A stretch of 64,000 bases of DNA. Source: Paragemmobacter amnigenus (lineage in GTDB: Bacteria; Pseudomonadota; Alphaproteobacteria; Rhodobacterales; Rhodobacteraceae). The notes under the pieces were generated by a model. It was not told where the DNA came from. It worked only from the letters and a program-made list of their open reading frames with translations, and searched no databases. The stretch covers positions 248,001-312,000 of the forward strand of contig NZ_JAAATX020000004.1 in NCBI RefSeq assembly GCF_009908265.2. The letters run 5' to 3'. A program made the translations under genes and the position numbers. Positions 40,130 to 64,000 of the stretch are shown here, piece after piece; position 1 is the first letter of the stretch; each line of letters opens with the position of its first letter.

Positions 40130-40261
40130 CTAGCCCGTCACACGCAGACCCAGCACCGCCCGAACCCACGCCGCGAACCGCGACGGGGACGCCCGGCGCG
40201 CGGGGGCAACGGGCGTGCGGACCCGCCGCATTCCGGCGGCATCGATGAAGATATGCGACAT
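40130..40261 (-). CDS. Small basic hypothetical protein at the end of the first ABC operon
   Basis: Not recognised. A 43-residue protein, 'MSHIFIDAAGMRRV' at the start and Arg-rich in the second half ('RRASPSRFAAWVRAVLGLRV'), which could form an amphipathic, positively charged helix. It is supported mainly by an excellent ribosome site, AGGAGG about 6 bases before ATG 40261. A longer form from ATG 40353 (74 residues), 4 bases after the ATPase stop, is possible. It lies on the same strand directly behind the first ABC operon and so is likely on that transcript. Nothing was found in 40016-40129. Confidence 0.45.
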   Translation of the reverse strand: MSHIFIDAAGMRRVRTPVAPARRASPSRFAAWVRAVLGLRVTG

Positions 40262-40355
40262 GGCAGACCCTCCTGCGCTGGTGTCCGTCATCAGCGGGGC
40301 GAACCGCCCCCCGGCGATGCTTCCAAGCGGCAGCATGCCAAGGGGCGGGCGCATC

Positions 40356-41459
40356 TCAGACCTCGGCGACAAGGTGGCCGTCGGCGGGCGACCAGTGCGC
40401 GTAAAGCCGCTGGCCGATCCCGACCGGCAGGTTCTCCAGCGCCTCGTGACCCATCTGGACACGGATTTCCTGACCGTGGTCGGTCTCCAGATACAGCGTC
40501 GCGGTCGCGCCCACGAATTCCTCGCCGATCACCTTGGCCGGAACCACGTTCACCGCATCGGCGGGACGCGCGACCGACAGGCCCATCCGCGTGTCCAGCA
40601 CCGTCACCGTCGCCGTCGATCCCGGCACGGGACGCGACCGGCGGGCGGTATCGGGCAGGGCCAGCCGCATCCGGCCCGACGGCGCGTCGATCTCCATCGC
40701 CCCCTCGCTGACCGAGGCGACCTTGCCGCTGAAGATGTTGGACGATCCAAGGAAATCCGCCACGAACTTCGTGCGTGGCGTGCGATAGATCTCCTGCGGG
40801 GTGCCGATCTGCTCGATCACGCCGCGCGACATGATGACCACGCGGTCGGCCATCGAGAACGCCTCGGACTGGCTGTGCGTGACGTAGACGAAGGTGATCC
40901 CCGTCTCGCGCTGCAGCGTCTTGAGCACCGCCTGCATCCGCACCTTCAGCGCGGCATCCAGCGCCGAAAGCGGCTCGTCCAGCAGCAGGATTTCCGGCTC
41001 CACCACCAGCGACCGCGCCAGCGCCACGCGCTGCCGCTGCCCGCCCGAAAGCTGCGCGATGTTGCGCTCGGCAAATTCCGAGATCTGCATCCGGTCCAGC
41101 CACTGCTCGGCGCGCCGCCGCCGCTCGGCCTTGCCCACGCCGCGCATCTTCAGCGCGAACTCGACATTCTCGCGCACGTTCAGGAACGGGAACAGCGCAA
41201 GGCTCTGCCACACCATCGGCGTGTCGCGCTGCCAGGTGGGCAGATGGTTGATGGGCTTGCCCGACAGGCGGATCGTCCCTTCGGTCGGTGCCTCCAGACC
41301 CGCCAGCATCCGCAGCGTCGTCGTCTTGCCGCAGCCGGACGATCCCATGATCGCAAGGAACTCGCCCTTCTTGATCTCGAAATCCATCCGCTGCACGGCC
41401 GTGAAGTTGCCGAACCGCTTGACCACTCCCTCAAAGGAAACCAGCGTATCGCGTTCCAT
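40356..41459 (-). CDS. Polyamine-type ABC importer ATPase (system 1)
   Basis: A 367-residue PotA-like ATPase. It has Walker A 'MGSSGCGKTTTLRMLAGLE', Q-loop 'MVWQSLALFPFLNV', signature 'LSGGQRQRVALARSLVV', Walker B 'ILLLDEPLSALD' and switch His in 'YVTHSQSEAFSMADR', followed by a C-terminal TOBE domain ('VVPAKVIGEEFVGATATLYL'). It energises uptake through the two permeases just upstream in the operon. Operon order is binding protein, permease, permease, ATPase, small protein. The neighbouring LysR, creatininase and creatinase genes suggest the substrate is creatinine, creatine or a similar cation (inference). Confidence 0.92.
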   Translation of the reverse strand: MERDTLVSFEGVVKRFGNFTAVQRMDFEIKKGEFLAIMGSSGCGKTTTLRMLAGLEAPTEGTIRLSGKPINHLPTWQRDTPMVWQSLALFPFLNVRENVEFALKMRGVGKAERRRRAEQWLDRMQISEFAERNIAQLSGGQRQRVALARSLVVEPEILLLDEPLSALDAALKVRMQAVLKTLQRETGITFVYVTHSQSEAFSMADRVVIMSRGVIEQIGTPQEIYRTPRTKFVADFLGSSNIFSGKVASVSEGAMEIDAPSGRMRLALPDTARRSRPVPGSTATVTVLDTRMGLSVARPADAVNVVPAKVIGEEFVGATATLYLETDHGQEIRVQMGHEALENLPVGIGQRLYAHWSPADGHLVAEV

Positions 41460-41464
41460 CCGAT

Positions 41465-42298
41465 TTACTCCTGTCCGGCCGCAGCAAGGCGGGCTTTCGC
41501 GCCGCGACCCGTCAGCAGAAGCTGGGCAAGGATCACAAGCGTCATGGATGTGACAAAGACAAAGGTGCCGATGGCGTTGATGCGCGGGCTGACCTGCCCC
41601 TGAAGGAAGCCCAGCACCTTGACGGGCAGCGTCTCGTTCAGGCCCGACACGAACCACGCCACGGCGAATTCGTCGAAGGACACGGCCATCGTGATGAACA
41701 GCGCGCCGAACACGGCGGGCTTGCAGAAGGGCAGGATCACATGCCGCATCGTCTGCCATTCCGACGCGCCAAGGTTCCAGGCGGCGGGTTCCAGCGCGGG
41801 GTCCATCTGGTTCAGCCGCAGCCGGATCACCGCCATGGCAAAGGGCGCGCAGACCACGACATGGCTGATGATGACCGACAGCGCATTGCCCGACAGATCG
41901 ATCCGCGACAGATAGGCCAGCATTGCCAGACCCAGAATGATGACCGGGATCGTCGGCGGCAGCAGCGCCAGCGCCAGATAGACCTGCTTGCCAAAGAACT
42001 TGTAGCGATAGTCGGTATAGGCCGCACCGAAGCCCAGCGCGGTCGAGATCACGCCCACGATCACCCCGACGGTCAACGTGTTACGCAGCCCTTCCCAGAC
42101 CAGCGGGTCGGATGCCACGGCGTGGTACCAGTCCAGCGTGAAATCGCCCAGCGGGATCGACGGGAACCGGTCCGAGTTGAACGAGAAGACGAAGCTCGCC
42201 GCGATCGGTGCAAAGACAAAGGCATAGGCCAGCAGGACATAGAGCTTCAGCCCCCAGTCCACGGCGCGGTTGCGGTTGATATGTTCCGATCCGCTCAT
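41465..42298 (-). CDS. Polyamine-type ABC importer permease (system 1, PotC-like)
   Basis: A 277-residue inner-membrane permease with six membrane segments and the binding-protein-dependent EAA loop 'EPAAWNLGASEWQTMRHVIL'. The region 'ALALLPPTIPVIILGLAM' and the long loop 'SFDEFAVAWFVSGLNETLPV' are typical of PotC/PotI-like subunits, in which SFDEF/SFDDF precedes the last segments. The start ATG overlaps the end of the other permease by 4 bases, and the stop is 5 bases before the ATPase start, so the genes are tightly coupled. Confidence 0.9.
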   Translation of the reverse strand: MSGSEHINRNRAVDWGLKLYVLLAYAFVFAPIAASFVFSFNSDRFPSIPLGDFTLDWYHAVASDPLVWEGLRNTLTVGVIVGVISTALGFGAAYTDYRYKFFGKQVYLALALLPPTIPVIILGLAMLAYLSRIDLSGNALSVIISHVVVCAPFAMAVIRLRLNQMDPALEPAAWNLGASEWQTMRHVILPFCKPAVFGALFITMAVSFDEFAVAWFVSGLNETLPVKVLGFLQGQVSPRINAIGTFVFVTSMTLVILAQLLLTGRGAKARLAAAGQE

Positions 42299-43155
42299 TT
42301 CCCCACCTCTTTCGATGCGCGACCCGCATAGGCAAAGCGGACGGCGACAAAGGCCACGACTAGAAGCGTCGCGATCATGGTCAGCGCGATCACCGCCGCG
42401 CGGGGCCATTGCTGGCCGGATTTCGTGGTGTCAGTGATCAGGATGGACAGTGTGGTCGGATCACCACCCCCCAGATAGATCGGGCTGACGAAGTCGCCAA
42501 AGCTCAGGATGAAGGCAAACAGCGCCGCGATCACCAGCCCGACGCGGGCCGAGGGGATCACCACCTCGAACACGGTCCGCATCCGCCCGCAGCGCATGTT
42601 GTGCGCCGCCTCGATCAGGTTGCGGTCGATGAAGGCAAGGCTGAAAAGTTGCAGCAGCACGACCAGCGGAAAGGCCAGCGTCAGATAGCCCACCAGCGTC
42701 GCGCCCTTGGTGTTCAGCATTCCATAAGGCCCAAGCCCGACATAGCCGAGCATGACGTTCACGATCCCCGCATCGGACAGGAAGATCTGCCAGGAATAGA
42801 CCCGCACCAGATAGCTGGTGAAGAACGGGATCACCATCAGGAACACCGCCCAGCGCCGCGCCGTATCCGACAGTTTGAAGGCGATGGCATAGGCGCAGGG
42901 AAAGGCCAGCGCACTGGTCAGCGCGGCTGCTACGGTGGCAAGCGCAAAGGTCGTGCCATAGGCCTGCCAGAACACCCCGCGCGAGAACATGGTCACCCAG
43001 TTCACCGTGTCGAAGTCCGGCGTCATGGTGAAGTTCTTCACCGTCCAGAAGCTCAGCGCGACAAGAAAGACCAGCGGGAACACAAAGAACAGAAGCTGCC
43101 AGACAAGAAGCGGCAGCGAGAATGTCAGACCGTATAGGGACAGCCGGGATCGCAT
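42295..43155 (-). CDS. Polyamine-type ABC importer permease (system 1, PotB-like)
   Basis: A 286-residue inner-membrane permease with six membrane segments. The N-terminal 'LPLLVWQLLFFVFPLVFLVA' and the segment 'MVIPFFTSYLVRVYSWQIFL' are PotB/PotH signatures. The EAA loop reads 'EAAHNMRCGRMRTVFEVVIP', and 'SFGDFVSPIYLGGGDPTTLS' follows. It pairs with the PotC-like subunit. A perfect GC hairpin lies in the 88-base gap between this gene and the upstream binding-protein gene. Confidence 0.9.
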   Translation of the reverse strand: MRSRLSLYGLTFSLPLLVWQLLFFVFPLVFLVALSFWTVKNFTMTPDFDTVNWVTMFSRGVFWQAYGTTFALATVAAALTSALAFPCAYAIAFKLSDTARRWAVFLMVIPFFTSYLVRVYSWQIFLSDAGIVNVMLGYVGLGPYGMLNTKGATLVGYLTLAFPLVVLLQLFSLAFIDRNLIEAAHNMRCGRMRTVFEVVIPSARVGLVIAALFAFILSFGDFVSPIYLGGGDPTTLSILITDTTKSGQQWPRAAVIALTMIATLLVVAFVAVRFAYAGRASKEVGK

Positions 43156-43187
43156 GGCGCGCTTCTCTGTCTTTGGTGTTGCAAGAC

Positions 43188-43212
43188 GGGGGGCGGCTTT
43201 GCGCCGCCCCCC
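43188..43212 (-). other. Intercistronic hairpin, binding protein to permease
   Basis: GGGGGGCGGC (43188-43197) pairs perfectly with GCCGCCCCCC (43203-43212) across 5 bases. There is no T-tract on the minus strand, so it is more likely a 3' stabiliser that raises the ratio of binding protein to permease than a full terminator. Confidence 0.6.
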
Positions 43213-43243
43213 TGCTGTTGCGATGGCAGCTCCGACGCGCATG

Positions 43244-44374
43244 TCAGGCGCCCTTGTACTCGGACCAGAAGTCGTTCCACGTCTCCAGATCCTGCTGGAT
43301 CGGCCACTGGCGGTACTGGATGCGGCCCGCACGGATCATGTCCATCGCGTTGCCCGCATCCTTGGTCATACCCTGACGCTTGGCCTCGGCCGGATTTTCG
43401 GCCTGCAGCACCTCCCAGCCCTTGGCGTTCGGGATCAGCGCGGGATAGGCCGCCATCTGGGCCGATTTCGCCTGACCCTTGGCCGAGGTGACGTACTGGA
43501 TCCACTTCTTGGCCAGCTCCGCCTTCTGCGACCCTTTCCCGATCGAGAAGCATTCCGACCACTGCAGACCGCCCTGCTCCGGAATGACCGAGCGCACCTT
43601 GGCGCCGTTCTTTTCCAGCGTGCCGGTGATCCAGTCGCCGATGCCCGCAAAGGCCAGCATCTGCCCGTCATTCAGCGACGAGAAGGTGCCGCCATAGTCG
43701 AAGAACCCGCCGACCTGCGGACGCAGCGACAGCGTCTTTTCCTTGACCGCCTCCCAGCCCGCCTCGTCGATGTCATAGGCCGAGGCATTGCCGGCCAGCA
43801 GGCTCATCTGGCCAAGGTTCGGCAGATGCCAGTCGAAATGGCCCACCTTGCCCGTCAGCTTCGGATCCCAGAAGATGTTGTAGTTTGCCGCTTCCGCCTC
43901 GGTCAGGGCGTCGGTGTTGTAGGCCACGCCAAGGAAGCCGAACCGCGCCACGAGCGAGAACAGCTTGCCGTCCTGCCAGTTGCCGGGGAAATTCTGGAAT
44001 TCGGGGAAATAGTCGGCCAGCGCGTAATCGTTCGGGTCCAGCTCCTCGACATAACCCGCCGCGTTCAGCGCCTGCACATATTCCGCATCCGACAGGATGA
44101 CGTCAAAGGTGCCCGCCGGCGATTGCGAGATCAGGCCCAGCATGTTGTCGCCGCCGGTATAGTATTTCGGAACGAACTTGACGTTGTTCTCGGCCTCGAA
44201 CTCGGCAACCATGTCCGGCTCGGCATGGCCGTACCATGCCAGCATCGTCAGCTCGGTCGGCGCGGCAAAGGCGCGGCGCGACAGCATGGGCATCGCCAGT
44301 GCGGCGGCGCCGGTGGCAAGAAGGGACCGGCGCGTGACGGCACCGGACACACCGGAAAGGTGGGTCTTGGTCAT
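43244..44374 (-). CDS. Polyamine-type ABC importer substrate-binding protein (system 1)
   Basis: A 376-residue periplasmic binding protein of the PotD/PotF fold. The N-terminal 'VTRRSLLATGAAALAMPMLS' is a Tat signal. Mature motifs include 'ELTMLAWYGHAEPDMVAEFE', 'GTFDVILSDAEYVQALNAAG' and 'PGNWQDGKLFSLVARFGFLG'. Several aromatic and acidic residues (Trp, Tyr, Asp, Glu) could form a cation-binding site, as in spermidine-binding proteins, but the exact ligand cannot be read. It is the first gene of the ABC operon. The LysR gene ends 119 bases upstream on the same strand. Confidence 0.9.
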   Translation of the reverse strand: MTKTHLSGVSGAVTRRSLLATGAAALAMPMLSRRAFAAPTELTMLAWYGHAEPDMVAEFEAENNVKFVPKYYTGGDNMLGLISQSPAGTFDVILSDAEYVQALNAAGYVEELDPNDYALADYFPEFQNFPGNWQDGKLFSLVARFGFLGVAYNTDALTEAEAANYNIFWDPKLTGKVGHFDWHLPNLGQMSLLAGNASAYDIDEAGWEAVKEKTLSLRPQVGGFFDYGGTFSSLNDGQMLAFAGIGDWITGTLEKNGAKVRSVIPEQGGLQWSECFSIGKGSQKAELAKKWIQYVTSAKGQAKSAQMAAYPALIPNAKGWEVLQAENPAEAKRQGMTKDAGNAMDMIRAGRIQYRQWPIQQDLETWNDFWSEYKGA

Positions 44375-44492
44375 ATCTGTTTGTCCTGTTGGTGAGTGCG
44401 GTTCTTATTGCCTTCACGTTAGGCGGGGACCGCTCAAGGACATAATCGGTTATTGAAATTGATCCATTTGCCAACCTTATCGTTGGCGCGGT

Positions 44493-45386
44493 TCAATTTG
44501 GCAGCACGCGGATACCGGCCCCCACGCTTTCGATGCTGGCGACCAGATCGCTCACCAGTTGCAGCCCGGACGCCGTCAGACGCGGATGCTTGTAGAAAAG
44601 GCCGATACGCAGCGGATCCAGAACGGGAAAACCCTCTGCCTCGGTCAGTTGCCGCATCCCCGGCAACAGCGTCGCCTGCGTCAGGGCGGTCACGCAAAGG
44701 CCGCTCGCGACAGCGTTCTGAAGGCCCGAAATCCCGGGACTGGTATAGACGATCCGCCAGCGCCGTCCCTGCTGTTCCAGCGCCCCGATCATGCGCGCGC
44801 GGTAATCGCAGCCCTCCAGATGCGCGCCCAGCGGCACCGGCATGTTCTCGACCGGACGGAACGATTCGGACGCCGCCCAGATCGGCTGCTCCACCCAGGC
44901 CCGCGACAGATACGGCATGCGCGGTTGTGGCATGGTGGCGATGATGACGTCCAGCTCCTCGGCCCGCAGCAGCCGGTGCAACTCGCGGCTCAGATCGCAG
45001 TAGATTTCCAGTTCCACTTCGGGATGGGAACTCAGAAAGGCGGTCAGCGTGTCCTGCAGGAAGCTCACGGCATAATCCGTGGGCAAGCCGATCCGCAGCA
45101 CACCGGCAATTGTGGCGCGGTGGAAATAGGCCACCGCCTCGTCATTGATCCGCACCATCTCGCGCGCGTAGGACAGCAGCGCCTCGCCCGCCTGCGTGGG
45201 CTGGATGGACCGCCCCTCCTGCGACAGCAGCGGCGCGCGCACCAGCTCCTCCAGCCGCTGTATCTGCAGACTGACCGCAGGCTGGCTGCGCCCCAGCAGG
45301 GCGCCTGCCTTGGAATGCCCGCCCAGTTCCACCACCGCGATGAAGGTCCGCAACAGATCGGTCGGCAGGTTGGTGAAAGCCGGCAT
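44493..45386 (-). CDS. LysR-family regulator, divergent from creatininase
   Basis: A 297-residue regulator. The N-terminal winged helix has 'LLRTFIAVVELGGHSKAGAL' and the recognition part 'LGRSQPAVSLQIQRLEELV'. The C-terminal co-inducer domain has 'GVLRIGLPTDYAVSFLQDTL' and 'LDVIIATMPQPRM'. The gene is divergent from creatininase with 99 bases between, the classic LysR arrangement for control of a divergent target and of itself. It also lies just upstream of the ABC operon on the same strand and may control it. The co-inducer may be creatinine, creatine or sarcosine (inference). CCAAC-N6-GTTGG (about 44472-44487) lies just past its stop. Confidence 0.91.
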   Translation of the reverse strand: MPAFTNLPTDLLRTFIAVVELGGHSKAGALLGRSQPAVSLQIQRLEELVRAPLLSQEGRSIQPTQAGEALLSYAREMVRINDEAVAYFHRATIAGVLRIGLPTDYAVSFLQDTLTAFLSSHPEVELEIYCDLSRELHRLLRAEELDVIIATMPQPRMPYLSRAWVEQPIWAASESFRPVENMPVPLGAHLEGCDYRARMIGALEQQGRRWRIVYTSPGISGLQNAVASGLCVTALTQATLLPGMRQLTEAEGFPVLDPLRIGLFYKHPRLTASGLQLVSDLVASIESVGAGIRVLPN

Positions 45387-45485
45387 GGATTTGCGCCCCT
45401 GATCCAGTGATTGGGACTATATATTTTCCTTATGCACCTTCCGCCAAGTACTTTCCTCGCAACCGCCAAATCCACGAGGCCTGCG

Positions 45486-46280
45486 ATGAAACACACTCCC
45501 GGCTTGAAGCACACCTCCGCTTTCGCCTCCGAACTCACATGGCCCGACTACCACGAGGCGATGAAGGACGGGCGCACGCCCATCCTGATCCCGCTGGGTT
45601 CAATGGAACAGCACGGACATCACATGCCGCTGCATGTCGATGTGCTGCTTCCCACCGAATTCGCACGCCGCGTCGCGGTGGACATGGGCGCGCTGGTCGC
45701 GCCGCCTTTCACCTATGGCTACAAGTCGCAGCAGAAATGCGGCGGCGGCAACCACATGCCCGGCACCACCAGCCTTGATGGCGCGACCCTGGTCGCCGCA
45801 CTCAAGGACGTGATCAAGGAATTCGCCCGCCACGGCGCGCGCAAGATCTGCATGGTGAACGGCCATTTCGAAAACTCGTGGTTCATCATCGAAGCCATCG
45901 ACCTCGCCCTGCGCGAATTGCGCTGGGACGGCATCACGGACATGAAGATCGTGGTCCTGTCCTACTGGGATTTCGTCGACCCCGAGGCGATCACCAAGCT
46001 CTATCCCGACGGCTTCCCCGGCTGGGATCTGGAACATGGCGGGGTGCTGGAAACCTCGCTCATGCTGGCGCTCTATCCCGACCTCGTCCAACTCGACCGC
46101 GCGCTGGATGTGGCCCCTGCCAGCTTCCCGCCCTATGACGTCTATCCCGTCCGCCCCGAGCTCACCCCCATTTCCGGCACGCTCTCCTCGCCCAAGGAAG
46201 CCTCGGTCGAAAAGGGACATATCCTGCTCGAGGTCTGCACCCGCGGCATCCTCTCGGCCCTGCAGACGGAATTCGCCTGA
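45486..46280 (+). CDS. Creatininase (creatinine amidohydrolase)
   Basis: A 264-residue enzyme that interconverts creatinine and creatine in the cytoplasm. It follows the Pseudomonas putida enzyme closely as I remember it. Metal ligands Glu41, His43 and Asp52 are in 'SMEQHGHHMPLHVDVLLP', and His127 and Glu129 in 'NGHFEN'. The conserved 'YGYKSQQK.GGGNH.PGTTS', 'VVLSYWDF' and 'GWDLEHGG' (with the two active-site Trp residues) are present. One visible difference is Phe128 where P. putida has Tyr121. It lies divergent from LysR and converges on the creatinase homologue, with a shared terminator. The product creatine would be the substrate for that neighbour. Confidence 0.93.
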   Translation: MKHTPGLKHTSAFASELTWPDYHEAMKDGRTPILIPLGSMEQHGHHMPLHVDVLLPTEFARRVAVDMGALVAPPFTYGYKSQQKCGGGNHMPGTTSLDGATLVAALKDVIKEFARHGARKICMVNGHFENSWFIIEAIDLALRELRWDGITDMKIVVLSYWDFVDPEAITKLYPDGFPGWDLEHGGVLETSLMLALYPDLVQLDRALDVAPASFPPYDVYPVRPELTPISGTLSSPKEASVEKGHILLEVCTRGILSALQTEFA

Positions 46281-46304
46281 TTCAAAGAGATAGCTCCCCG
46301 ACTC

Positions 46305-46331
46305 GGGGCCGCCGTGGCGGCCCCTTTTTTT
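46305..46331 (+). terminator. Rho-independent terminator after creatininase
   Basis: GGGGCCGCC (46305-46313) pairs with GGCGGCCCC (46316-46324), followed by seven T residues (46325-46331) on the plus strand. It overlaps the stop region of the convergent creatinase-like gene. Confidence 0.9.
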
Positions 46332-47544
46332 ATGCGCCGATGACGTTTTGTTCCGGCCCTCTGGGAAACTGTCCCAGAACCTCGCCGCCGTCCTCGGTGA
46401 CGATGACGACATCGCATTCGCGATATCCCCCCGCCCCCGGCATCCCCTCGGGGATCATCACCATCGGCTCCATCGACACCACCATGCCCGGCTCCAGCAC
46501 AGTCTGCACATCCTCGCGCAGTTCGACCCCCGCCTCGCGGCCGTAGTAATGCGACAGCACACCGAAGGAATGGCCATAGCCGAACGAGCGGTACTTCAGC
46601 ATCCCCCACTCGCGGTACATCCCGTTCAACTCCGCCGCGATGTCACAGCATTTCACACCGGGACGGATCAGCTGCAGCCCGCGCCGGTGCACGGCGATGT
46701 TCCTTTCCCATATGTCCAGACTGGCCGCATCGACCCGCCCGCAGAACAGGGTCCGCGCAAGGGCCGAGAAATAGCCGAAGATCATCGGAAAGCAGTTCAG
46801 CGACAGGATATCCCCCGCCTGCACCACGCGGTTTGTCACCGGATTATGCGCGCCGTCCGTATTGATCCCTGACTGGAACCACGTCCAACTGTCCATCAGC
46901 TCGACCTGCGGGAAACTCGCCGCGATCTCGCGGATCATGGCATTGGTCGCGGCAATCGCGACCTCGTGCTCGCCCACGCCCGCGCGGATGGCGGCCACGC
47001 CCGCCAAGGCGCCGGTATCCGCAATCCGCGCGCCCTCGCGGATCAGGGCCTGCTCCTCCGCCGATTTCACCGTCCTCAGCCACATCGAGGGCAGCGCCGC
47101 ATCGACAAACTCCACACCGGGCAGCGCGTGTTCCAGCTTGCGGCGGAAATCCATCGACACCGTGTCGAACTCGATCCCAAGCCGCCGCACGCCCGCCGTC
47201 AACTGCCGCACCGCGCGATAGAAATTGTCCCGCCGCCAGTCGGTATAGGTGACATTCCCGCCGACGCCCCGCCGCCAAGGCTGACCGCCATCTATGCCGG
47301 CCGAGATCGTCGTGACGTTGTCCTGCGTCAGCACCATCCCGTAGCGCCGTCCGAACTGGCAGAAAAGCCAGCCCGACAGATGGGCAATCCCGTGATACGA
47401 GGTGAAGAGGACCGCATCCACCCCCTGCGCGGCCATCCATTCGCGCATCGCGCGATGCCTGCGATCCATCTCGGCACCCGAGAACGGGGAAAAGACCTTG
47501 TCGCCGTTATGCCATTCCATAACGTGCAGCATGTCGTCGGTCAT
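46330..47544 (-). CDS. Creatinase-family amidinohydrolase with altered active site
   Basis: A 404-residue protein of the M24/creatinase fold, nearly the same length as P. putida creatinase, which splits creatine into sarcosine and urea. Long shared stretches include 'FQSGINTDGAHNPVT', 'GDILSLNCFPMI', 'FGYGHSFG.LSHYYGREAG' and 'EPGMVVSMEPM'. By that alignment the catalytic His233, Arg66, Arg336 and Glu359 are kept. The residue matching Glu262, which binds the guanidinium, is Ala263. Tyr258 is Phe259, and His376 is Cys377. It lacks the metal-binding residues of M24 peptidases, as creatinase does. It may be a creatinase variant or may act on a related guanidino or amide compound. The start is ATG 47544. 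Confidence 0.86.
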   Translation of the reverse strand: MTDDMLHVMEWHNGDKVFSPFSGAEMDRRHRAMREWMAAQGVDAVLFTSYHGIAHLSGWLFCQFGRRYGMVLTQDNVTTISAGIDGGQPWRRGVGGNVTYTDWRRDNFYRAVRQLTAGVRRLGIEFDTVSMDFRRKLEHALPGVEFVDAALPSMWLRTVKSAEEQALIREGARIADTGALAGVAAIRAGVGEHEVAIAATNAMIREIAASFPQVELMDSWTWFQSGINTDGAHNPVTNRVVQAGDILSLNCFPMIFGYFSALARTLFCGRVDAASLDIWERNIAVHRRGLQLIRPGVKCCDIAAELNGMYREWGMLKYRSFGYGHSFGVLSHYYGREAGVELREDVQTVLEPGMVVSMEPMVMIPEGMPGAGGYRECDVVIVTEDGGEVLGQFPRGPEQNVIGA

Positions 47545-47660
47545 GCCCTGCCTCCCCGCCGGAAATCGCCGTCCGCCGAAGATGTTAGCGACCGCCCGAT
47601 GGGCGCAGAAATTTGTTCCGCCAATGGGTGTATTAGCAGCGCGCGGCCTCTGGCAGGCGC

Positions 47661-48452: not shown

Positions 48453-51209
48453 TCAGGCCGCCAGCAGTGCCCGCGCCTCGTGCGACTTCAGCGTCAACCG
48501 CGCCGCATCGAAGGCCGTCCGCGACGTGGCAAGCGCGGGAAAGATCTGCAGGATCTCTTCGGCCTGCGTCCGGTCCATCGCGTCGACCATCGGCCGTGCC
48601 GGCTGGAAACTTTCGCTCCACGCGCCATCGGCGCAGACGATCTCGTGCCCGTCGAACAGGATATGGACATAGGTGACACCATCCGGACAGACCCTGTCGA
48701 CCCCGTCCAGCCCCGTCAGATGCGTTGCGGCAACCAGCACCTCGGGCTCTCCGAAAAGCAGCTCCGCCCGCAGCCCCTGCAGCAGCATCCGGTGTTGCGG
48801 CGACACCGTCATATCCCGCGCAGGCACCCCGTTGCCCAGCGCACCGGCCCTGATGCGAACCGGACAAAGCCCGTCCCGCGCGGAAAGGAGCGCCGCCCGC
48901 TCCAGCCTGCGCCGCCCCGTCCAGAGCAGCCGGCAGAACCCGTTGTCGCGCGTCAGAACCGCATCCCCCGCCCGCAGATCCTCGACCGCCACCTCACCCC
49001 GCCGCGTCGTGATCCGCGTCCCCGGCGTAAAACAGGGCACCACGGTCTCGACATTCTGGAACTGCATCGTCCCGATCACCGCGCCGGTCTGGTTCAGGAA
49101 CTGCACCAAGCCGTTGCGCCGATCGACCGCGTCATAGACCACATTGGTATTGCGCCAGCCCCAGGCCGACAGGTCCAGCGTATCGTTGCCGTCGCCCCCG
49201 TCGACCACGTCGCCATCGTTGCCACCGACCAGCGTATCCGCCCCCGCGCCGCCGATGATCGTATCGGCGCCTTCGCCGCCCTCCAGACGGTCATTACCCT
49301 CGTCCCCGGACAAAAGGTCATCGCCTGCCCCGCCGACAAGGCTGTCCTGCCCCGCCCCGCCATAAAGCCGGTCATCCCCGCCGCGCCCGTCCAGTGAATC
49401 ATCACCGGCCCCGCCCGACAGCGTATTTCCCGCTCCATCCCCGAACAGCCGGTCATCCTGCGCGGACCCCGCAAGCGCCTCGATCCCGGCAAGACTGTCG
49501 CCCGCCGCATCGCCCGCCGATCCGGACCCCGCCGCAAGATCAACCGTCACACCCGAGGCAGACCCCGAATAATCGGCGACATCGACCCCTGCTCCACCGG
49601 TCAGCTGGTCACTGCCCTCTCCACCCGCCAGCGTGTCGTTTCCGTCCCCGCCCTCCAGCAGGTCATTGCCCGCCCCGCCCGACAGCAGGTCGTCGCCCCC
49701 CGCTTCGGCAGCAACTGGCAAAGGCTGGGTGTTGACGAAATACTCGTAGAAAAATCCGGCACTCGACGTGTTGTTCGACCCCGAGGCAAGGATCCCCACC
49801 GAGGTATAGGGGACATTGATCGTCAGCGTCCCGATGGTCGACGGGTTGGATCCCGTGCCTGCGATGCGGACGATCTGACCCGATCCGTTGATCCCGTAGA
49901 CGCCGCCACCGTTGAAACTGACCCTGCCGTCGGCCACCGCCGTCGCCAGATTGACCGTGACACCGTCGATCTGGATCGTCGCCGCCTCGTTCGAATCCAG
50001 CCCGTTGAACCGCACCTGTCCCCCCGCCAGCCGCGATGAGGCCATGTGCGTGTGCAGTTCGTTCGAATCCCCGTTGCCGATCCGGAACCCGCTCACGCCG
50101 CTGTTGCTGCCGGTGGTCAGGTTGCTCTCGTTCGACCACGTCCGAACCGTGAATTCCGGTCGGCCCGAGGTTCCGGCTATCTCCTGCGTGGCAAGGGTGA
50201 CTTCCGTATAGACCGGCGCATAGGTGGCCCCCGCCGCTCCGGCCCCGCCGACCAGCGTGTCGTCGCCATCGCCGCCCGACAGGCTGTCATTTCCCGATCC
50301 GCCATCGACCGAGTCGTTCCCCGCCCCGCCCGACAGCGTGTCAGCCCCGTATCCGCCGAAAACCGCATCACGGCCGGCGTCGCCAAAGACGATGTCATTG
50401 CCCAGACCCGCATTGACCGTGTCATCCCCCGAACCGGCGCGGATGTAATCGTCATGTCCCGTCGTTCCGGCAAGGCCCGTGGCATCCTCGCCATCCACCC
50501 TGTCCCCGTCCGGATCGCCCGTGAACGCGGCACCGATGACGTCATTGCCCGACGTGCCGTCGACGATCCCGTCTCCGACAAAACTGCTGCCTCCCTCGAA
50601 GCCCAGCCCGTAGACACCTGCGGGATCGTTGGTGTCGAAATCGTTGGTCGCATAGGTCGACAGCATGGCCGGATCGCCCGACCCTTCCAGCAGGGTCTGG
50701 GTCGTGCCGTCATAGAAACCGGTCGTGGCATGGCCGGCATAGCCATTGGTGAAACCTATGTTTTCATAGATGTATTCGACCGTGAAGTCGCCACTGCCGG
50801 TCGAGGTCAGAACAACCTGAAAGCTGTTCTGCCCCGTCCCCGTATAGGGCGCCACGTTCAGCCATGTGATCGTGATCCTGCCATTGACGGGATCGAGATC
50901 CCAGTAGATGTCGCCCCCCTTGCTGATGTCGATATCGGTCCAGAACGGGGCCAGCGACGGCTGTCCCAGCGAGGTCAGCGATGACGGCGTATAGGTCGTG
51001 ACACCCGAACCAAAGGTGATCAGACCGTTGGAGCTGATGAAAAGGCTGGTATATCCGGTCCCGCCGACCGTCATGCCGCCCGACCCGAAGATCGAGGTCA
51101 CGTTGACGTTGACGAACCCGTCATCAAGATTGCCCGAAACGGTCGCGGTCTTGAAGGATTGCTCCCCATAGCCCGCGCTTCCGCCAAGCCCTGAGATCAT
51201 CGTCGCCAT
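48453..51209 (-). CDS. Secreted NIDO-like/RTX/Hint-domain protein
   Basis: A 918-residue protein. The N-terminal 190 residues look like a nidogen (NIDO) domain ('SLFISSNGLITFGSGVTTYT', 'LAPFWTDIDISKGGDIYWDL'). RTX calcium-binding nonapeptides occur at about 215-330 and 505-690 ('GGAGNDSVDGGSGNDSLSGG'), split by a beta-rich segment of unknown type. The C-terminal 190 residues are a Hint (Hedgehog/intein) domain with Cys726 in 'VPCFTPGTRITTRRGEVAVE' and 'MTVSPQHRMLLQG'. There is no signal peptide, so type I secretion is likely. Hint domains can self-cleave, so the protein may be processed outside the cell. It interrupts the catabolic cluster between two SDR genes on the same strand. Role unknown, possibly surface or adhesion. 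Confidence 0.87.
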   Translation of the reverse strand: MATMISGLGGSAGYGEQSFKTATVSGNLDDGFVNVNVTSIFGSGGMTVGGTGYTSLFISSNGLITFGSGVTTYTPSSLTSLGQPSLAPFWTDIDISKGGDIYWDLDPVNGRITITWLNVAPYTGTGQNSFQVVLTSTGSGDFTVEYIYENIGFTNGYAGHATTGFYDGTTQTLLEGSGDPAMLSTYATNDFDTNDPAGVYGLGFEGGSSFVGDGIVDGTSGNDVIGAAFTGDPDGDRVDGEDATGLAGTTGHDDYIRAGSGDDTVNAGLGNDIVFGDAGRDAVFGGYGADTLSGGAGNDSVDGGSGNDSLSGGDGDDTLVGGAGAAGATYAPVYTEVTLATQEIAGTSGRPEFTVRTWSNESNLTTGSNSGVSGFRIGNGDSNELHTHMASSRLAGGQVRFNGLDSNEAATIQIDGVTVNLATAVADGRVSFNGGGVYGINGSGQIVRIAGTGSNPSTIGTLTINVPYTSVGILASGSNNTSSAGFFYEYFVNTQPLPVAAEAGGDDLLSGGAGNDLLEGGDGNDTLAGGEGSDQLTGGAGVDVADYSGSASGVTVDLAAGSGSAGDAAGDSLAGIEALAGSAQDDRLFGDGAGNTLSGGAGDDSLDGRGGDDRLYGGAGQDSLVGGAGDDLLSGDEGNDRLEGGEGADTIIGGAGADTLVGGNDGDVVDGGDGNDTLDLSAWGWRNTNVVYDAVDRRNGLVQFLNQTGAVIGTMQFQNVETVVPCFTPGTRITTRRGEVAVEDLRAGDAVLTRDNGFCRLLWTGRRRLERAALLSARDGLCPVRIRAGALGNGVPARDMTVSPQHRMLLQGLRAELLFGEPEVLVAATHLTGLDGVDRVCPDGVTYVHILFDGHEIVCADGAWSESFQPARPMVDAMDRTQAEEILQIFPALATSRTAFDAARLTLKSHEARALLAA

Positions 51210-51418: not shown

Positions 51419-51465
51419 GATTCCGAGTCAAAGGCTGGCTGACCGTCCCCCTGCGGTGCACCCCG

Positions 51466-52230: not shown

Positions 52231-52247
52231 CGCCCTGCCCTCCCCCT

Positions 52248-53054: not shown

Positions 53055-53061
53055 CGCCCCC

Positions 53062-53919: not shown

Positions 53920-53932
53920 CCCGCCGATCTCC

Positions 53933-55087: not shown

Positions 55088-55111
55088 GGGTCCATTCCCT
55101 TGTTGGATATG

Positions 55112-56242
55112 TCAGTCTCGTCCAAGGATCAGGCCGCAGCCATGATCCCACAGCACGTGGACGCGCGCGCCCACGTCGGCACCCTGCAGGCTTCTTTCTG
55201 CCTGTCTGGGAACATTCACCTGAACCTGTCCCAGCACCTCGTGGCGCAAGAGACATTCGATATGCTCGCCAAGGAACGTCTTGTGCAGCACCTCGGCCAC
55301 CATGGCATCGGCCCCGTCCGCAGCCCCCGACGACAGGCGCAGCGCCTCGGGGCGCACGGCAACCTCGACCGCCATGCCAACCGTCACGGCAAAGGGCGCG
55401 GCCACCGTGACGGACAGACCGCCGCCCAGAGCCACCCGCGCCAGCCCGTCACCGGCCAAAGCCTCGACCCGCCCCTCATGGATATTGGCCTGCCCCACGA
55501 ACCCCGCGACATAGCGGTTGGCGGGCCGGTCATACAGATCGCGCGGCGTACCGGTCTGCACGATCCGCCCCTGCCCCATGATGACGATGCGGTCCGACAT
55601 CGACAGCGCCTCCTGCTGGTCATGGGTGACCAGAACGAAGGTGATCCCCAGCGACCGCTGCAGCGACAGCAACTCCATCTGCATCTCGCCGCGCAGCTTG
55701 GCATCCAGCGCCGCCATCGGCTCGTCCAGCAACAGCATCTTCGGCTCGTTCACGATGGCCCGCGCCAGCGCGACGCGCTGCTGCTGGCCGCCCGACATCT
55801 GCCAGATGCGCCGCGGCCCGAAACCCGACAGCCGCACCGTCTCCAGCGCACGCTCCACCCGACGCGCGATCTCGGCCCGCTCCATCCGCGGGCGACGCTG
55901 GCGCAGGCCATAGCCCACATTCTCGGCCACGGTCATATGCGGAAACAGCGCATATTGCTGGAACACCATGTTCACGGGCCGCGCATGGGCAGGCGCCCCG
56001 CCCATGTCCTGCCCGTCGATCAGGATGCGCCCCTCGCTGGGCGCCTCCAGCCCTGCCAGCATCCGCAGCGCCGTCGTCTTGCCGCATCCCGAAGGGCCCA
56101 GAAAAGACAGGAACTCGCCCCGCCGGATCCGAAGATCCAGCCTGTCCGCCGCCAGCACCTCGCCGAACCGCTTGGTGGTTCCGACGAATTCGGCGATCAC
56201 CGGCCGCCCGTCGCTCTGCTGGCCTTCCTCCGGAACGGTCAT
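55112..56242 (-). CDS. Polyamine-type ABC importer ATPase (system 2)
   Basis: A 376-residue PotA-like ATPase. Walker A is 'LGPSGCGKTTALRMLAGLE', Q-loop 'MVFQQYALFPHMTV', signature 'MSGGQQQRVALARAIVN', Walker B 'MLLLDEPMAALDAKL' and switch His 'LVTHDQQEALSMSDR', followed by a TOBE domain ('DAMVAEVLHKTFLGEHIECL'). It is the first gene of the second ABC operon and is divergent from the LuxR-type regulator with a 132-base gap, so that regulator is a likely controller. No operator was recognised in the gap beyond an AT-rich GTATATAT at 56323-56330. Confidence 0.92.
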   Translation of the reverse strand: MTVPEEGQQSDGRPVIAEFVGTTKRFGEVLAADRLDLRIRRGEFLSFLGPSGCGKTTALRMLAGLEAPSEGRILIDGQDMGGAPAHARPVNMVFQQYALFPHMTVAENVGYGLRQRRPRMERAEIARRVERALETVRLSGFGPRRIWQMSGGQQQRVALARAIVNEPKMLLLDEPMAALDAKLRGEMQMELLSLQRSLGITFVLVTHDQQEALSMSDRIVIMGQGRIVQTGTPRDLYDRPANRYVAGFVGQANIHEGRVEALAGDGLARVALGGGLSVTVAAPFAVTVGMAVEVAVRPEALRLSSGAADGADAMVAEVLHKTFLGEHIECLLRHEVLGQVQVNVPRQAERSLQGADVGARVHVLWDHGCGLILGRD

Positions 56243-56374
56243 CTCCTGCCGCTTTCCCGTTGATCCGGCGCGTCGCGCCTATCCGTTTTTCCGGTGACAA
56301 GCGTATGAACGGCGTCAAAGCCTGTATATATCCCAAAAGGCATAGTCGGGACCGGAAAGGGCGGACCAAGGCAG

Positions 56375-57163
56375 ATGGACTGGCACGAGGCATCCGCGCG
56401 CGTGATCGACGCGCTGCACGGGGCGGACTTCGCCCCCGCACTGGTCAGCGCACTCCGCACCGTCGCACCCTTCGAACACAGCGTCACCTTCGCCTATCGC
56501 GGCGACCAGCGCCCGCTCGCGCTGCATGACGAATTTCCCGAATGGAAACGCAAGGTGATGGTGGCAGACTATCAGGCCGGACCCTACCTGCTCGATCCGT
56601 TCTATCTGAACGCCACCACCGGCCCGCTGCCCCGCCTCGTCCGCCTGCGCGATCTTGCTCCCGACCGCTTCTATCAGGGCGAATATTTCCGGAACTACTA
56701 CATCCGCACCGAACTGGCCGAAGAGATCGGTTTCATGGTCGATGCCGGTCAGGGCGTCAGCGTCGTCCTCTCCGCAATGCGAAGCAGCCGCGCCTTCTCG
56801 GCCCGCGAATTCCGCGACCTTGCCGCGGTGCTGCCCTTCGTGGCGGCCGCGATCCGGCACAACTGGTCCGATCTGGCCCGCCGCTTCGGTGACGGCCCGT
56901 CGGGCGGCAACGCGCCTGCCCTCACCTCGCTGATCGACCGCGCCTTCCGCAGCGTCGGGCGCAACCTCCTCACCGCGCGCGAGACCGAGGTGGTGGAATA
57001 CACCCTCAGGGGTCACTCGGCCGAGGCTACAGGTCAGGCGCTGGGCATCTCGCCCGGCACGGTCCGGATCCACAAGCGCAACATCTACACCAAACTCGGC
57101 ATCGGTTCGCAGGGCGAACTCTTCTCGCGCTTCATCGCCACCCTGTCCTCGCTCCGCGACTGA
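56375..57163 (+). CDS. LuxR-type helix-turn-helix regulator
   Basis: A 262-residue regulator. The C-terminal LuxR helix-turn-helix is plain: 'LLTARETEVVEYTLRGHSAE', 'ALGISPGTVRIHKRNIYTKL'. The N-terminal 190 residues form an unassigned sensor ('VAPFEHSVTFAYRGDQRPLA', 'QGEYFRNYYIRTELAEEIGF'); it does not show the autoinducer-binding pattern clearly, although the fold may be GAF-like. The gene is divergent from the second ABC operon and 90 bases upstream of the acetamidase/formamidase, so both are likely targets. The expected input is a small molecule linked to that pathway (inference). Confidence 0.88.
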   Translation: MDWHEASARVIDALHGADFAPALVSALRTVAPFEHSVTFAYRGDQRPLALHDEFPEWKRKVMVADYQAGPYLLDPFYLNATTGPLPRLVRLRDLAPDRFYQGEYFRNYYIRTELAEEIGFMVDAGQGVSVVLSAMRSSRAFSAREFRDLAAVLPFVAAAIRHNWSDLARRFGDGPSGGNAPALTSLIDRAFRSVGRNLLTARETEVVEYTLRGHSAEATGQALGISPGTVRIHKRNIYTKLGIGSQGELFSRFIATLSSLRD

Positions 57164-57253
57164 TCCGCAGGCCGCGCCTTGTCGCGCTGCGTCTTGTGCC
57201 TACCTCTGGCGCAGGGCCGACAGGCCCGCCACAGAACAAACGGGAGGATCGCA

Positions 57254-58576: not shown

Positions 58577-58625
58577 CCCGACCGCCGCCCGGTCCGTCCG
58601 GGCGGCACAATCACCCCGGGATGGT

Positions 58626-58838: not shown

Positions 58839-58875
58839 GAGCAACCCTCCCTCGACCTCGCTTCTGCTGCGTATA

Positions 58876-58946
58876 TTGTAAGCTTTTGTAAGTAAATTGG
58901 GTCTACCCTAGGTATGTAATTTTCAACCATAGGTAAATTTTAACCC
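58876..58946. promoter_or_regulatory. AT-rich divergent control region with phased repeats
   Basis: TTGTAAG occurs twice, 10 bases apart (58876 and 58886). TAGGTA occurs twice, 21 bases apart (58909 and 58930), each followed by an AATTTT-x-AACC-like tail. The spacings equal one and two helical turns, which suggests binding of a dimeric regulator, plausibly the OmpR-type regulator encoded at 60873. Confidence 0.5.
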
Positions 58947-58989
58947 ATACACACCCATCCGAAAGTCAACGTGTGTCGACTGGACACTC

Positions 58990-61541: not shown

Positions 61542-61686
61542 GGCGCTGCCCGCGCACGACTGGTACGCGGGGCAACCACAGCCTCGGCCGGTCCCGCCGC
61601 ACCCTCCACCCCCCTGCATTCCGGCTGTCGCGGCATCATCCCGCGCCGATCCGGTCGGCCGACGTCGATACAGCCTGCAAAGGCCG

Positions 61687-61692
61687 TTGACA
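61687..61692 (+). promoter_or_regulatory. Possible -35 element before the kinase-like/dehydrogenase operon
   Basis: A perfect TTGACA, 40 bases before ATG 61733. No good -10 hexamer is found 16-18 bases downstream, so this may need an activator or be chance. Confidence 0.3.
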
Positions 61693-61732
61693 GTCCCTGC
61701 CTTGCCCGCCGAACCTTGGCCCTGCCCGCCCC

Positions 61733-62623
61733 ATGGAAGCGCCCATGATCCCCGACGTCATCCGCGCCCTGCCGTGGCAGGGACAGATCACCGCCGAACC
61801 CCTGCTGGGCGGCCTCTCCAACGAAAGCTGGAAGGTCACCGACGATGCGGGAACCCATGTCGTCCGCCTCGGCCGCGACTTCCCCTTCCATCATGTCGAC
61901 CGCGGGCGCGAGGTGATGGTGGCCCGCGCCGCCCATGCCGCGGGATTCGGCCCCGCCCTGCGCCATGCCGAACCCGGTCTGTCGGTCGTGGAATTCCTGA
62001 ACGCCCGCACATGGGGCCAGGGCGACCTGCGCGCCAATCCCGACCGCGTGGGCGACCTCCTCCGCCGCTTCCACGCCGAAATGCCCGCCCATGTCTCGGG
62101 CGCGGCCTTCCTCTTCTGGCCCTTCCACGTGATCCGCGACTATGCCCGCACCCTGCGCGCGGGCGACAGCCCCTTCCTGCCCGACCTCCCCGCGCTCCTG
62201 TCACTCTCGGAGGAACTGGAATCCGCGCAGGTGCCGCTGCCCCTGATCTTCGGCCACCACGACCTCCTGCCCGCCAATGTCCTCGACGATGGCCAGCGCC
62301 TCTGGCTGATCGACTACGAATATGCAGGCTTCGGCACCGCGCTTTTCGACCTTGCGGGCGCCGCCTCCAACGCAGGCATGGCCCCCGACGAAACCGAAGC
62401 CCTCCTTCGCGCCTATTTCGGCGAAGCGCCCGCCGCACCCCTCCGCCGCGCCTTCGACGCCATGCACTGCACAAGCCTCCTGCGCGAGGCGATGTGGGCC
62501 ATGGTCTCGGCCCTCCACCTCTCGGCCCCCGGCGCGGATTACACCGCCTATGCCCGCGAAAACCTCGACCGGCTTGCCGCCGCGCTCGACCTCTACCGCT
62601 CCCAGCACGGAAAGCAGACATGA
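61733..62623 (+). CDS. Choline/ethanolamine-kinase-like phosphotransferase (APH superfamily)
   Basis: A 296-residue kinase-fold protein. It has a Gly-rich loop 'LLGGLSNESWKVTDDAG', Brenner's motif 'FGHHDLLPANVLDD' and the metal-binding 'LWLIDYEYAGFGTALFDLAG', the pattern of choline/ethanolamine kinases (LicA type) rather than aminoglycoside resistance enzymes. In the cytoplasm it would phosphorylate choline or a related amino alcohol. Starts at ATG 61733 and ATG 61745 are both possible. The stop overlaps the start of the dimethylglycine/sarcosine-dehydrogenase-like gene (ATGA), linking it to methylated-amine metabolism. Confidence 0.85.
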   Translation: MEAPMIPDVIRALPWQGQITAEPLLGGLSNESWKVTDDAGTHVVRLGRDFPFHHVDRGREVMVARAAHAAGFGPALRHAEPGLSVVEFLNARTWGQGDLRANPDRVGDLLRRFHAEMPAHVSGAAFLFWPFHVIRDYARTLRAGDSPFLPDLPALLSLSEELESAQVPLPLIFGHHDLLPANVLDDGQRLWLIDYEYAGFGTALFDLAGAASNAGMAPDETEALLRAYFGEAPAAPLRRAFDAMHCTSLLREAMWAMVSALHLSAPGADYTAYARENLDRLAAALDLYRSQHGKQT

Positions 62624-64000
62624 CCCTTCCCACCCACGCGCAGATCGTCGTCATCGGCGGCGGCATCATCGGCTGCTCCACCGCCTACCATCTGGCGCGC
62701 GACCACAAGGCCGACGTGGTGCTGCTGGAACAGGGCAAGATCACCTCGGGCAGCACATGGCATGCCGCAGGGCTGGTGGGCCAACTCCGCGCCTCGGCCT
62801 CGATCACCCGCGTCCTCAAATACTCGGTCGACCTCTACAAGGGCCTCGCGGCAGAGACCGGCCTTGATACCGGCTGGAAGATGACCGGCTGCCTGCGCCT
62901 TGCCACCAATCCCGACCGCTGGACCGAATACCGCCGCCTCGCCACCACCGCCCGCTCCTTCGGGATGGAAATGCACCTGATCCCGCCGGACGAGGTCAAG
63001 CGCATGTGGCCGCTGATGGACACCTCCGACCTCGTGGGCGCAAGCTGGCTGCCGACCGACGGTCAGGCCAGCCCCTCCGACATCACCCAGTCGCTCGCCA
63101 AGGGCGCGCGGATGCATGGCGCGCGCCTGCACGAAGGCGTCACCGTCACCGGCTTTGCCATGGACGGCCTCCGCATCACCGCCGTCCATACCGACCAAGG
63201 CACGATCCATTGCGAAAAGGTCGTCAACTGCGGCGGCATGTGGGCGCGCGAGATCGGCGCGATGGCAGGCATCAACGTCCCCCTGCAACCCGTGAAACAC
63301 CAGTACATCGTCACCGAGAAGATCGACGGCCTCTCCCCCGACGCCCCCACCCTGCGCGACCCCGACCGCCGGACCTATTTCAAGGAAGAGGTGGGCGGGC
63401 TGGTCATGGGCGGCTATGAACCCAACCCGCAGGGCTGGGTGCAGGGCGATATCCCCAAGAACTGGGAATTCCGCCTCTTCGACGATGATTACGACCATTT
63501 CGCCCAACACCTCGAACAGGCCATCGCCCGCGTCCCCGCGCTTGAAAAGACCGGCGTGAAACAGATGATCAACGGCGCCGAAAGCTTCACCCCCGACGGC
63601 AACTTCATCCTCGGCCCCGCGCCGGAATGCGCCAACATGTATGTCGGCGCAGGCTTCAACGCCTTCGGCATCGCATCGGGGGGCGGCGCGGGCTGGGTTC
63701 TGGCCGAATGGGTCATGCGGGACGAAGCGCCCCTCGACCTCTGGGTCGTGGACATCCGCCGCTTCTCCGGCCTGCACCGCGACCGCGGTTGGGTCTTCGA
63801 CCGCACGATGGAGGCTTACGGCAAACACTACACCATCGGATTCCCGCACGAGGAATACGAAAGCGGCCGCCCCCGCATCACCTCGCCCATTTACCAACGG
63901 CTCAAGGACCACCGCGCCGTCTTCGGCTCCAAACTCGGCTGGGAACGCCCCAACTGGTTCGCGCCTGCCGGAATGGAACCGCGCGACGTCTATTCCATGG
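62620..64000 (+). CDS. Dimethylglycine/sarcosine dehydrogenase-like FAD protein, N-terminal part
   Basis: An open frame of 460 codons that runs off the window. The N-terminus has the FAD-binding 'IVVIGGGIIGCSTAYHLARD' and 'GSTWHAAGLVGQLRAS', whose His-containing SGSTWHAAG motif marks covalent FAD attachment in dimethylglycine and sarcosine dehydrogenases. 'VGAGFNAFGIASGGGAGWVL' and 'FGSKLGWERPNWFAPAG' mark the end of the oxidase domain and the link to the aminomethyltransferase (GcvT-like) half, which should lie past the window. Full-length members have about 800 residues. It would demethylate an N-methylglycine and pass the one-carbon unit to tetrahydrofolate. Sarcosine from creatine is a plausible substrate. 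It is coupled to the upstream kinase-like gene. Confidence 0.9.
   Translation, partial: MTLPTHAQIVVIGGGIIGCSTAYHLARDHKADVVLLEQGKITSGSTWHAAGLVGQLRASASITRVLKYSVDLYKGLAAETGLDTGWKMTGCLRLATNPDRWTEYRRLATTARSFGMEMHLIPPDEVKRMWPLMDTSDLVGASWLPTDGQASPSDITQSLAKGARMHGARLHEGVTVTGFAMDGLRITAVHTDQGTIHCEKVVNCGGMWAREIGAMAGINVPLQPVKHQYIVTEKIDGLSPDAPTLRDPDRRTYFKEEVGGLVMGGYEPNPQGWVQGDIPKNWEFRLFDDDYDHFAQHLEQAIARVPALEKTGVKQMINGAESFTPDGNFILGPAPECANMYVGAGFNAFGIASGGGAGWVLAEWVMRDEAPLDLWVVDIRRFSGLHRDRGWVFDRTMEAYGKHYTIGFPHEEYESGRPRITSPIYQRLKDHRAVFGSKLGWERPNWFAPAGMEPRDVYSM

Follow-up and report, generated by a model that had tools for sequence, protein, structure and literature searches.

Introduction

Creatinine and creatine are nitrogen sources in the environment, and creatinine-binding proteins are relevant to diagnostics. 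One kind of described carrier, CrnT, is presumably a single-protein permease. According to the available excerpts of one study, CrnT and CreT of Corynebacterium glutamicum take up creatinine and creatine and are encoded or regulated with the degradative enzymes, CreT being a major facilitator superfamily (MFS) transporter, and Roseobacter denitrificans grows on creatine without a CreT homologue, so other routes may exist (PMC8864220, 2022). No ATP-binding cassette (ABC) importer of creatinine or creatine is named in the open-access titles and abstract openings among the matches listed, and none is described in the excerpts considered of PMC6742649, PMC8864220, PMC7921472, PMC6790972 and PMC12625717. 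Here, we describe a creatinine-utilisation module that includes an ABC importer with a PotD-type fold, found in a 64,000-nucleotide stretch of the Paragemmobacter amnigenus genome (assembly GCF_009908265.2, contig NZ_JAAATX020000004.1, positions 248,001 to 312,000; hereafter the window, whose own numbering is used throughout). The explanation that fits best overall, and which we regard as probable, is that this importer (importer 1) would carry creatinine and that a second creatinase, encoded elsewhere in the genome, would split creatine.

Results

By gene content and conservation, window positions 40,356-47,544 are a single compact creatinine-utilisation module made up of importer 1 (A1-C1-B1-S1), a LysR-type regulator, crnA and creA. 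Pfam families and conservation of the locus identify a full ABC subunit set on the reverse strand, namely the ATPase A1 (40356-41459; ABC_tran and TOBE_2), the permeases C1 (41465-42298; BPD_transp_1) and B1 (42295-43155, overlapping C1 by 4 bases), and the SBP_bac_8 solute-binding protein S1 (43244-44374), the proposed creatinine binder, with an N-terminus that is twin-arginine-like as judged by eye. The regulator gene follows on the same strand (44493-45386, Pfam), then crnA on the forward strand (45486-46280) and creA, a class I creatinase homologue, on the reverse strand (46330-47544). The nearest named relatives of S1 on its tree are from Rhodobacter sp. CACIA14H1, Rhodobacteraceae bacterium QY30 and Gemmobacter. 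CrnA scores above the cut-off of TIGR04448, the NCBIfam equivalog model for creatininase (363.6 bits; cut-off 235), can be aligned over its entire length with the Pseudomonas putida enzyme 1j2t, and retains in that alignment the motifs EQHGHH, VDV, NGHFEN, YWDF and GWDLEHGG of the TIGR04448/PF02633 family, which we take to supply the metal ligands and substrate contacts. Curated family and residues together mark the crnA product as a genuine creatininase, in agreement with the initial annotation, which had noted the expected ligands; the two SBP_bac_8/BPD/ABC importers, the LysR and LuxR regulators and the kinase/regulator pair that it listed are likewise present where it had placed them.

Named loci were collected by a pattern scan of genome contigs, which favours close relatives, and gave 62 loci with a crnA relative; in 52 of these the crnA match covers 200 residues or more at 70% identity or higher, and of the 52, 43 have at least 5.6 kb before crnA and 9 are cut by a contig end. 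Main counts were made by tblastn; a gene caller trained on the codon usage of the window overlooked genes in some relatives. A1, B1, C1 and S1 all lie within 8 kb of crnA in 42 of the 43 loci with room, LysR does so in 43/43, S1 is still visible in 8 of the 9 contig-cut loci, and of the 45 loci where creA could be tested for, 43 have it no more than 5 kb away. Two loci (L041 and L059) hold crnA and the importer with no adjoining creA. S1 was not found in the remaining loci L075-L083 (crnA 37-57% identical), and L084 has merely a 34-residue crnA end. In 21 of the 52 named loci, a GlxA/AraC-type regulator (DJ-1/PfpI and HTH_18) is encoded no further than 9 kb from crnA; none was seen among the window genes from 35 kb onward.

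An evenly sampled set of 394 family genomes, partly the same records as the named loci and so overlapping with them, contains creatininase in 19, an S1-like gene (E 1e-60 or better) in 33 and both in 13, where S1 and crnA are no more than about 6 kb apart (genome co-occurrence: odds ratio 38, P 1.6e-11, phylogeny not corrected). Both genes are present in 10/10 genomes whose crnA is at least 70% identical and in 3/9 whose crnA is 44-47% identical; in 3 of the 6 divergent-creatininase genomes without an S1 relative, the locus sits on a contig shorter than 13 kb. Among plasmids, 23 records match crnA, and all 12 at 74% identity or more, from carriers including Shinella, Mesorhizobium, Ensifer and Microvirga, have S1 within about 1.2 kb. 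Paracoccus versutus and P. aminovorans are also carriers of the module. S1 also lies about 3 kb from crnA on plasmids of Azoarcus sp. KH32C (crnA 62%) and Ancylobacter (crnA 48%); in the other 9 plasmid crnA records, one of them a crnA fragment, no S1 was found at E 1e-80.

Gene order is rearranged among these loci, yet the importer is retained with crnA. Leisingera daeponensis has creA-LysR-crnA-S1-B1-C1-A1, with the importer on the opposite side of crnA; the betaproteobacterium Azoarcus sp. KH32C (S1 60%) has GlxA-creA-crnA-cytosine permease-hypothetical-S1BCA; L066-L070 and L072 carry creA on the crnA strand; and in the family genomes of L189-L192, crnA and S1-B1-C1-A1 are encoded on one strand, and soxB-type genes are found at a distance of 6-8 kb from crnA. 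The initial annotation had tied two polyamine-type importers to creatinine use and named co-occurrence with creatininase in related genomes as a check; that tie is strongly borne out for importer 1 (42/43 loci, 12/12 plasmids, 10/10 genomes) and fails for the second importer of the window (importer 2, described below).

A conserved block between LysR and crnA (45402-45434, ends approximate; alignment of 52 intergenic regions) is a possible LysR operator or promoter. Its pattern matches the window at 45410-45426 and occurs in 30/51 crnA loci and 5/12 loci of S1 kin lacking crnA, counting loci where LysR was found; since it was derived from the same loci, with no shuffled control, this operator evidence is descriptive. 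A palindrome pattern in the same region was dropped, with only 4/51 matches.

Importer 1 is of polyamine type by fold only, and its residues are not those of a polyamine importer. The S1 type is publicly labelled 'spermidine/putrescine', it has the SBP_bac_8 fold, and the best Foldseek matches of the S1 model are PotD-type structures (about 16-20% identity to polyamine-binding chains). S1 was aligned to Escherichia coli PotD through a profile of 30 S1 proteins, a comparison of sequences alone, in which PotD W34, Y293 and D257 correspond to S1 W47, Y310 and E274, and PotD E36, D168 and E171 to G49, W182 and N186. Taking E36, D168, E171 and D257 as the acidic ligands of polyamine amino groups, one of the four positions is still acidic. 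NCBIfam scores are 45 bits for PotD (cut-off 582) and 30 bits for PotF (cut-off 636). The AF2 model gives a clear overall fold, and no geometry was taken from its cleft.

The comparison of cleft residues used 48 chosen columns and four sets of proteins: the main crnA-linked S1 (54), a second crnA-linked group (5), divergent S1 (3) and kin drawn from 14 crnA-less loci, of which 13 carry the c13-c14 gene pair described below. W47, G49, D96, E98, R144, W182, W248, E274 and Y310 are identical across all four sets; Y48, H179, H183, N186 and Y227 are changed in the three divergent S1, and the positions that deviate in three remoter kin include H50, D247 and Y310. On the S1 tree, a quick one with long-branch warnings, most crnA-linked proteins fall in a main group, which has a single member that is not crnA-linked; a second group is nested among the kin, and three proteins branch far from the others.

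Twenty S1-like loci lack crnA. Fourteen of them have the c13-c14 pair, a BtpA/SgcQ family protein and a phosphoribosyltransferase going by the names in a publicly annotated Rhodovulum plasmid that shares this layout, and ten have a deaminase, six of cytosine deaminase type (c18; 708 bits against a cut-off of 438 for the one scanned) and four others of dCMP-deaminase fold (one scanned). One deaminase-linked relative of S1 is of the Rhodovulum sp. P5 type. Within 9 kb of crnA, deaminases and the phosphoribosyltransferase are found in 0/52 named loci and a BtpA-like gene only in L069. In L145-L156, L159 and L162, the S1-type importer, mostly with LysR, stands beside the BtpA/SgcQ protein and the phosphoribosyltransferase, and some of these loci add PRPP synthetase, a cytosine or dCMP-type deaminase, or a PuuE-like deacetylase (below cut-off); they are candidate base salvage or degradation loci. 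The divergent creatininases of L195-L202 (44-47% identical) perhaps act on a different cyclic guanidine: L195-L201 lie near agmatinase-like ureohydrolases and/or SDRs, and L195-L197 have an S1 relative and a TRZ/ATZ-like amidohydrolase nearby. A c18-like gene lies near the divergent creatininases of L194 and L197.

The creA product aligns over its full length with creatinases 7yto (722 bits), 1kp0 and 1chm (523 bits), so a creatinase homologue does adjoin the creatininase as the initial annotation had it, with two residues of the active site altered. Of the set that we take to form the 1chm active site (F62, R64, H232, E262, R335, E358, H376), E262 is Ala (Ala263, codon 46756-46758) and H376 is Cys (Cys377), and the others are retained. 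An alignment of 85 rows (both creatinase classes, I and II, with the window and some duplicates among them) has Glu at the E262 position in 77 and His at the H376 position in 81; at the former, the window, L074 and L038 have Ala, L025 and L023 Gly, L031 Gln, and two rows a gap. L254 also has Gly there and has lost the E358 position, and H232 is lost in L031 and L023. The window, L074, L038, L025, L023 and L031 group together on the S1 tree (SH-aLRT 82, not strong).

In the seven E262-lacking loci, the ratio of nonsynonymous to synonymous differences per site (pN/pS) is 0.43 for creA, 0.17 for crnA and 0.14 for S1, against 0.11, 0.12 and 0.15, respectively, in ten Glu-retaining control loci (own Nei-Gojobori script; synonymous sites near saturation). 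A simple pseudogene is unlikely, no stop codon being present in the seven clade members (L023 is cut at a contig end); the fast evolution and open frame suggest that creA of this clade is decaying or repurposed.

Creatinase-like genes occur in 255/394 family genomes. Class I creatinase (at least 72% identical) is found in eleven, ten of them with creatininase; the common class II type is 53-61% identical among the matches listed, and the one example aligned is nearest P. putida creatinase 1chm and retains the conserved motifs. An intact class II creatinase is encoded on contig C1 of the window genome, and in L254, L025 and L031 one lies beyond A1, adjoining a GlxA-type gene. Genomes of the genus hold a class II copy (at least 88%) in 16/19 and creatininase in 5/19, and the module probably entered a background already holding a creatinase. 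Class II redundancy is a plausible cause of the creA change; one genome with no class II gene and only an E262-lacking copy (G405) weighs against a simple hand-over, and another has both copies with E262 retained (G275). Twenty-one class II loci were inspected, 20 picked from the family sample and the window genome's own, and S1 was in none of them. Near seven (L166, L172, L173, L175-L177 and L183) lies a different PotD-type binding protein (c17), which as a lead is a candidate component of a creatine importer of roseobacters.

The full path from creatinine to glycine that the initial annotation drew from window genes cannot be completed within the window: creA has lost residues, the DMGDH-like flavoprotein gene scores far under the soxB cut-off, and three soxB genes over cut-off and urease lie elsewhere in the genome. 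In several relatives, soxB-type genes adjoin the module. The flavoprotein gene itself (FAD protein, 62620-63999), which is cut by the window end, scores 111.7 bits with the soxB model TIGR01373 against a cut-off of 529.45 and is not supported as a sarcosine oxidase. It is overlapped by an APH/choline-kinase-like gene (the two spanning 61733-63999; GntI model far below cut-off), and this pair is also found as neighbours in a genome without creatininase (G104).

The initial annotation had treated 40-64 kb as one island, and this did not hold beyond 47,544. A 10-kb count around crnA is fair only for SDR1 and importer 2, as the LuxR, amidase and DMGDH-like genes lie more than 10 kb away in the window; on the creA side, 9 kb or more is available in 36 of the 43 named loci. 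A wider test took in eleven relatives whose flanking sequence on that side runs to 17-30 kb (G285, G275, G010, G035, G320, G106, G267, G299, G395, G399 and G405). At 33% identity or more over half the length, none of these flanks contains SDR1, SDR2, S2, B2, C2, LuxR, the amidase, the kinase, its regulator, the APH-like gene or the DMGDH-like gene. The best half-length matches are 29% for SDR1, 32% for SDR2, B2 and C2, 31% for the response regulator and 23% for the DMGDH-like gene, with no half-length match for S2, LuxR, the amidase, the kinase or the APH-like gene. Above 33% there were only ATPase-family matches (A2, 42-53%, mostly A1 itself) and one partial RTX match (41%). Only 40,356-47,544 is conserved with creatininase, and the claimed island is, on this comparison, several independent neighbours. 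None of the outlying genes that had been linked to creatinine (those of importer 2, the LuxR regulator, the kinase pair and the two SDRs, and the amidase and DMGDH-like genes) is conserved beside crnA in these relatives.

Importer 2 forms a separate conserved unit with LuxR and an SDR gene (51466-57163; LuxR / PotA-PotD-PotB-PotC-SDR, that is LuxR, A2-S2-B2-C2 and SDR2), in which LuxR-A2-S2-B2-C2 is retained in 10/10 relatives inspected and SDR2 in 9. S2 occurs in 24/195 genomes; a creatininase search covered 21 of the 24 and was positive in four (G000, G010, G395 and G399), with the two genes on different contigs in G010 and G395 and about 730 kb apart in G399. With its own conserved unit, S2 mostly without creatininase, and no linkage of the two in G010, G395 or G399, importer 2 was rejected as a creatine importer. 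Between the creatinine module and importer 2, a gene at 48453-51209 encodes a protein that begins with a NIDO-like region, contains RTX repeats and ends in a Hint domain.

Discussion

In the proposed mechanism, S1 would capture creatinine outside the cytoplasm and B1-C1-A1 would pump it inward, and LysR, responding to creatinine or a compound closely derived from it, would switch both arms from the divergent region between its own gene and crnA. CrnA would open the creatinine ring to give creatine, a creatinase would split creatine to sarcosine and urea, and the sarcosine oxidases and urease of the genome would finish the path. As the creA of the module has lost its active-site Glu, splitting in the window genome would probably be done mainly by the second, intact creatinase on the other contig. 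These proposals on substrate, regulation and flux are drawn from composition, conservation, rearrangement with retention, residue replacements and downstream enzymes, all read from sequence.

Creatinine is a flat amino-lactam like cytosine, and it is the most likely substrate of importer 1 rather than creatine, since S1 is in 0/21 class II loci, two loci have the importer with no adjoining creA, and the kin lie near cytosine-type genes. A cytosine permease follows crnA on two betaproteobacterial plasmids, of Paraburkholderia, where it stands beside crnA instead of an S1-type importer, and of Azoarcus, which also has the ABC importer; that two kinds of carrier with cytosine-type connections accompany creatininase also favours creatinine. 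It is unlikely, though the leading alternative, that importer 1 carries creatine, or both compounds with creatinine use secondary: creA nearly always lies within 5 kb of crnA, and the invariant R144 and acidic residues in the aligned cleft region could hold a zwitterion, yet these are equally retained in kin at loci without crnA. Creatinases are also far more widespread than S1 (255 against 33 of the 394 genomes), S1 is absent from the class II loci, and the window clade shows loss of catalytic residues in creA alongside continued constraint on S1 and crnA. A true polyamine importer beside crnA by chance is very improbable, since the PotD-type fold and public label that speak for it are set against replaced acidic ligands, a PotD score far under cut-off, and a linkage to crnA that survives rearrangement and is kept on plasmids.

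A general importer of cytosine-type nucleobases or N-heterocycles, carried with crnA through shared LysR control, is improbable too. It would account for the c18 and BtpA/phosphoribosyltransferase genes at 6 and 14 of the 20 kin loci, the c18-like gene near two divergent creatininases and the nearly identical cleft residues; set against it, deaminases and the phosphoribosyltransferase are absent up to 9 kb from crnA at the named loci, and the crnA label is clustered on the S1 tree (4 changes; shuffled mean 17.2). Several findings nonetheless weigh against importer 1 as a creatinine importer. No cleft column among the 48 separates every crnA-linked S1 from kin, so S1 may bind some other base instead of creatinine. 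Sixteen columns are characteristic of the main S1 group, and at most of them the second crnA-linked group (L066-L070) is kin-like; the modelled cleft is poor (pLDDT below 50 at 182-185, 223-237 and 245-253). A main-clade S1 also occurs in a genome with no creatininase (G077), where its neighbours are the BtpA/phosphoribosyltransferase pair; one locus with room (L073) has crnA, LysR and creA but a different PotD-type importer; and only 3 of 9 divergent-creatininase genomes have an S1 relative, L198-L200 having an NMT1-type importer instead. Most loci come from one family and a close-relative scan, so the counts are not independent.

With these points weighed, we infer that S1B1C1A1, with its PotD fold, belongs to an importer subfamily whose substrates are small flat amino-lactams (creatinine and cytosine-like bases) rather than polyamines, and the widely used label 'spermidine/putrescine binding protein' would be wrong for the whole S1 subfamily. 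In a broader view, which has a substantial though less than even chance, LysR and S1B1C1A1 would be a portable uptake cassette for amino-lactam heterocycles, with the same cleft residues and a partly similar LysR-side motif, that serves either creatininase or a BtpA/SgcQ-phosphoribosyltransferase(-deaminase) pathway for a cytosine-like base and has been re-paired more than once, the window-clade creatinase meanwhile becoming a non-creatinase protein with its frame kept. For alphaproteobacteria, importer 1 is a concrete candidate for the uptake of creatinine, set apart from the other importers beside the second creatinase type.

Compared with known systems, what is new would be the transporter assignment, the creatinine pathway itself being already known. 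The module resembles the Pseudomonas-type creatininase-creatinase-sarcosine oxidase pathway in its end-to-end homologous CrnA and CreA and in the soxB-type genes of relatives, and differs in including an ABC importer and LysR and in a window creA without the E262 equivalent. Like the uptake genes of C. glutamicum it would couple transport to degradation, with an ABC importer unlike the MFS transporter CreT; the cytosine permease directly after crnA on the Paraburkholderia and Azoarcus plasmids is by annotation a single permease and not an ABC importer. With PotABCD and PotFGHI, importer 1 shares the fold, subunit set and Pfam families, and S1 differs in having replaced three of the four acidic polyamine ligands.

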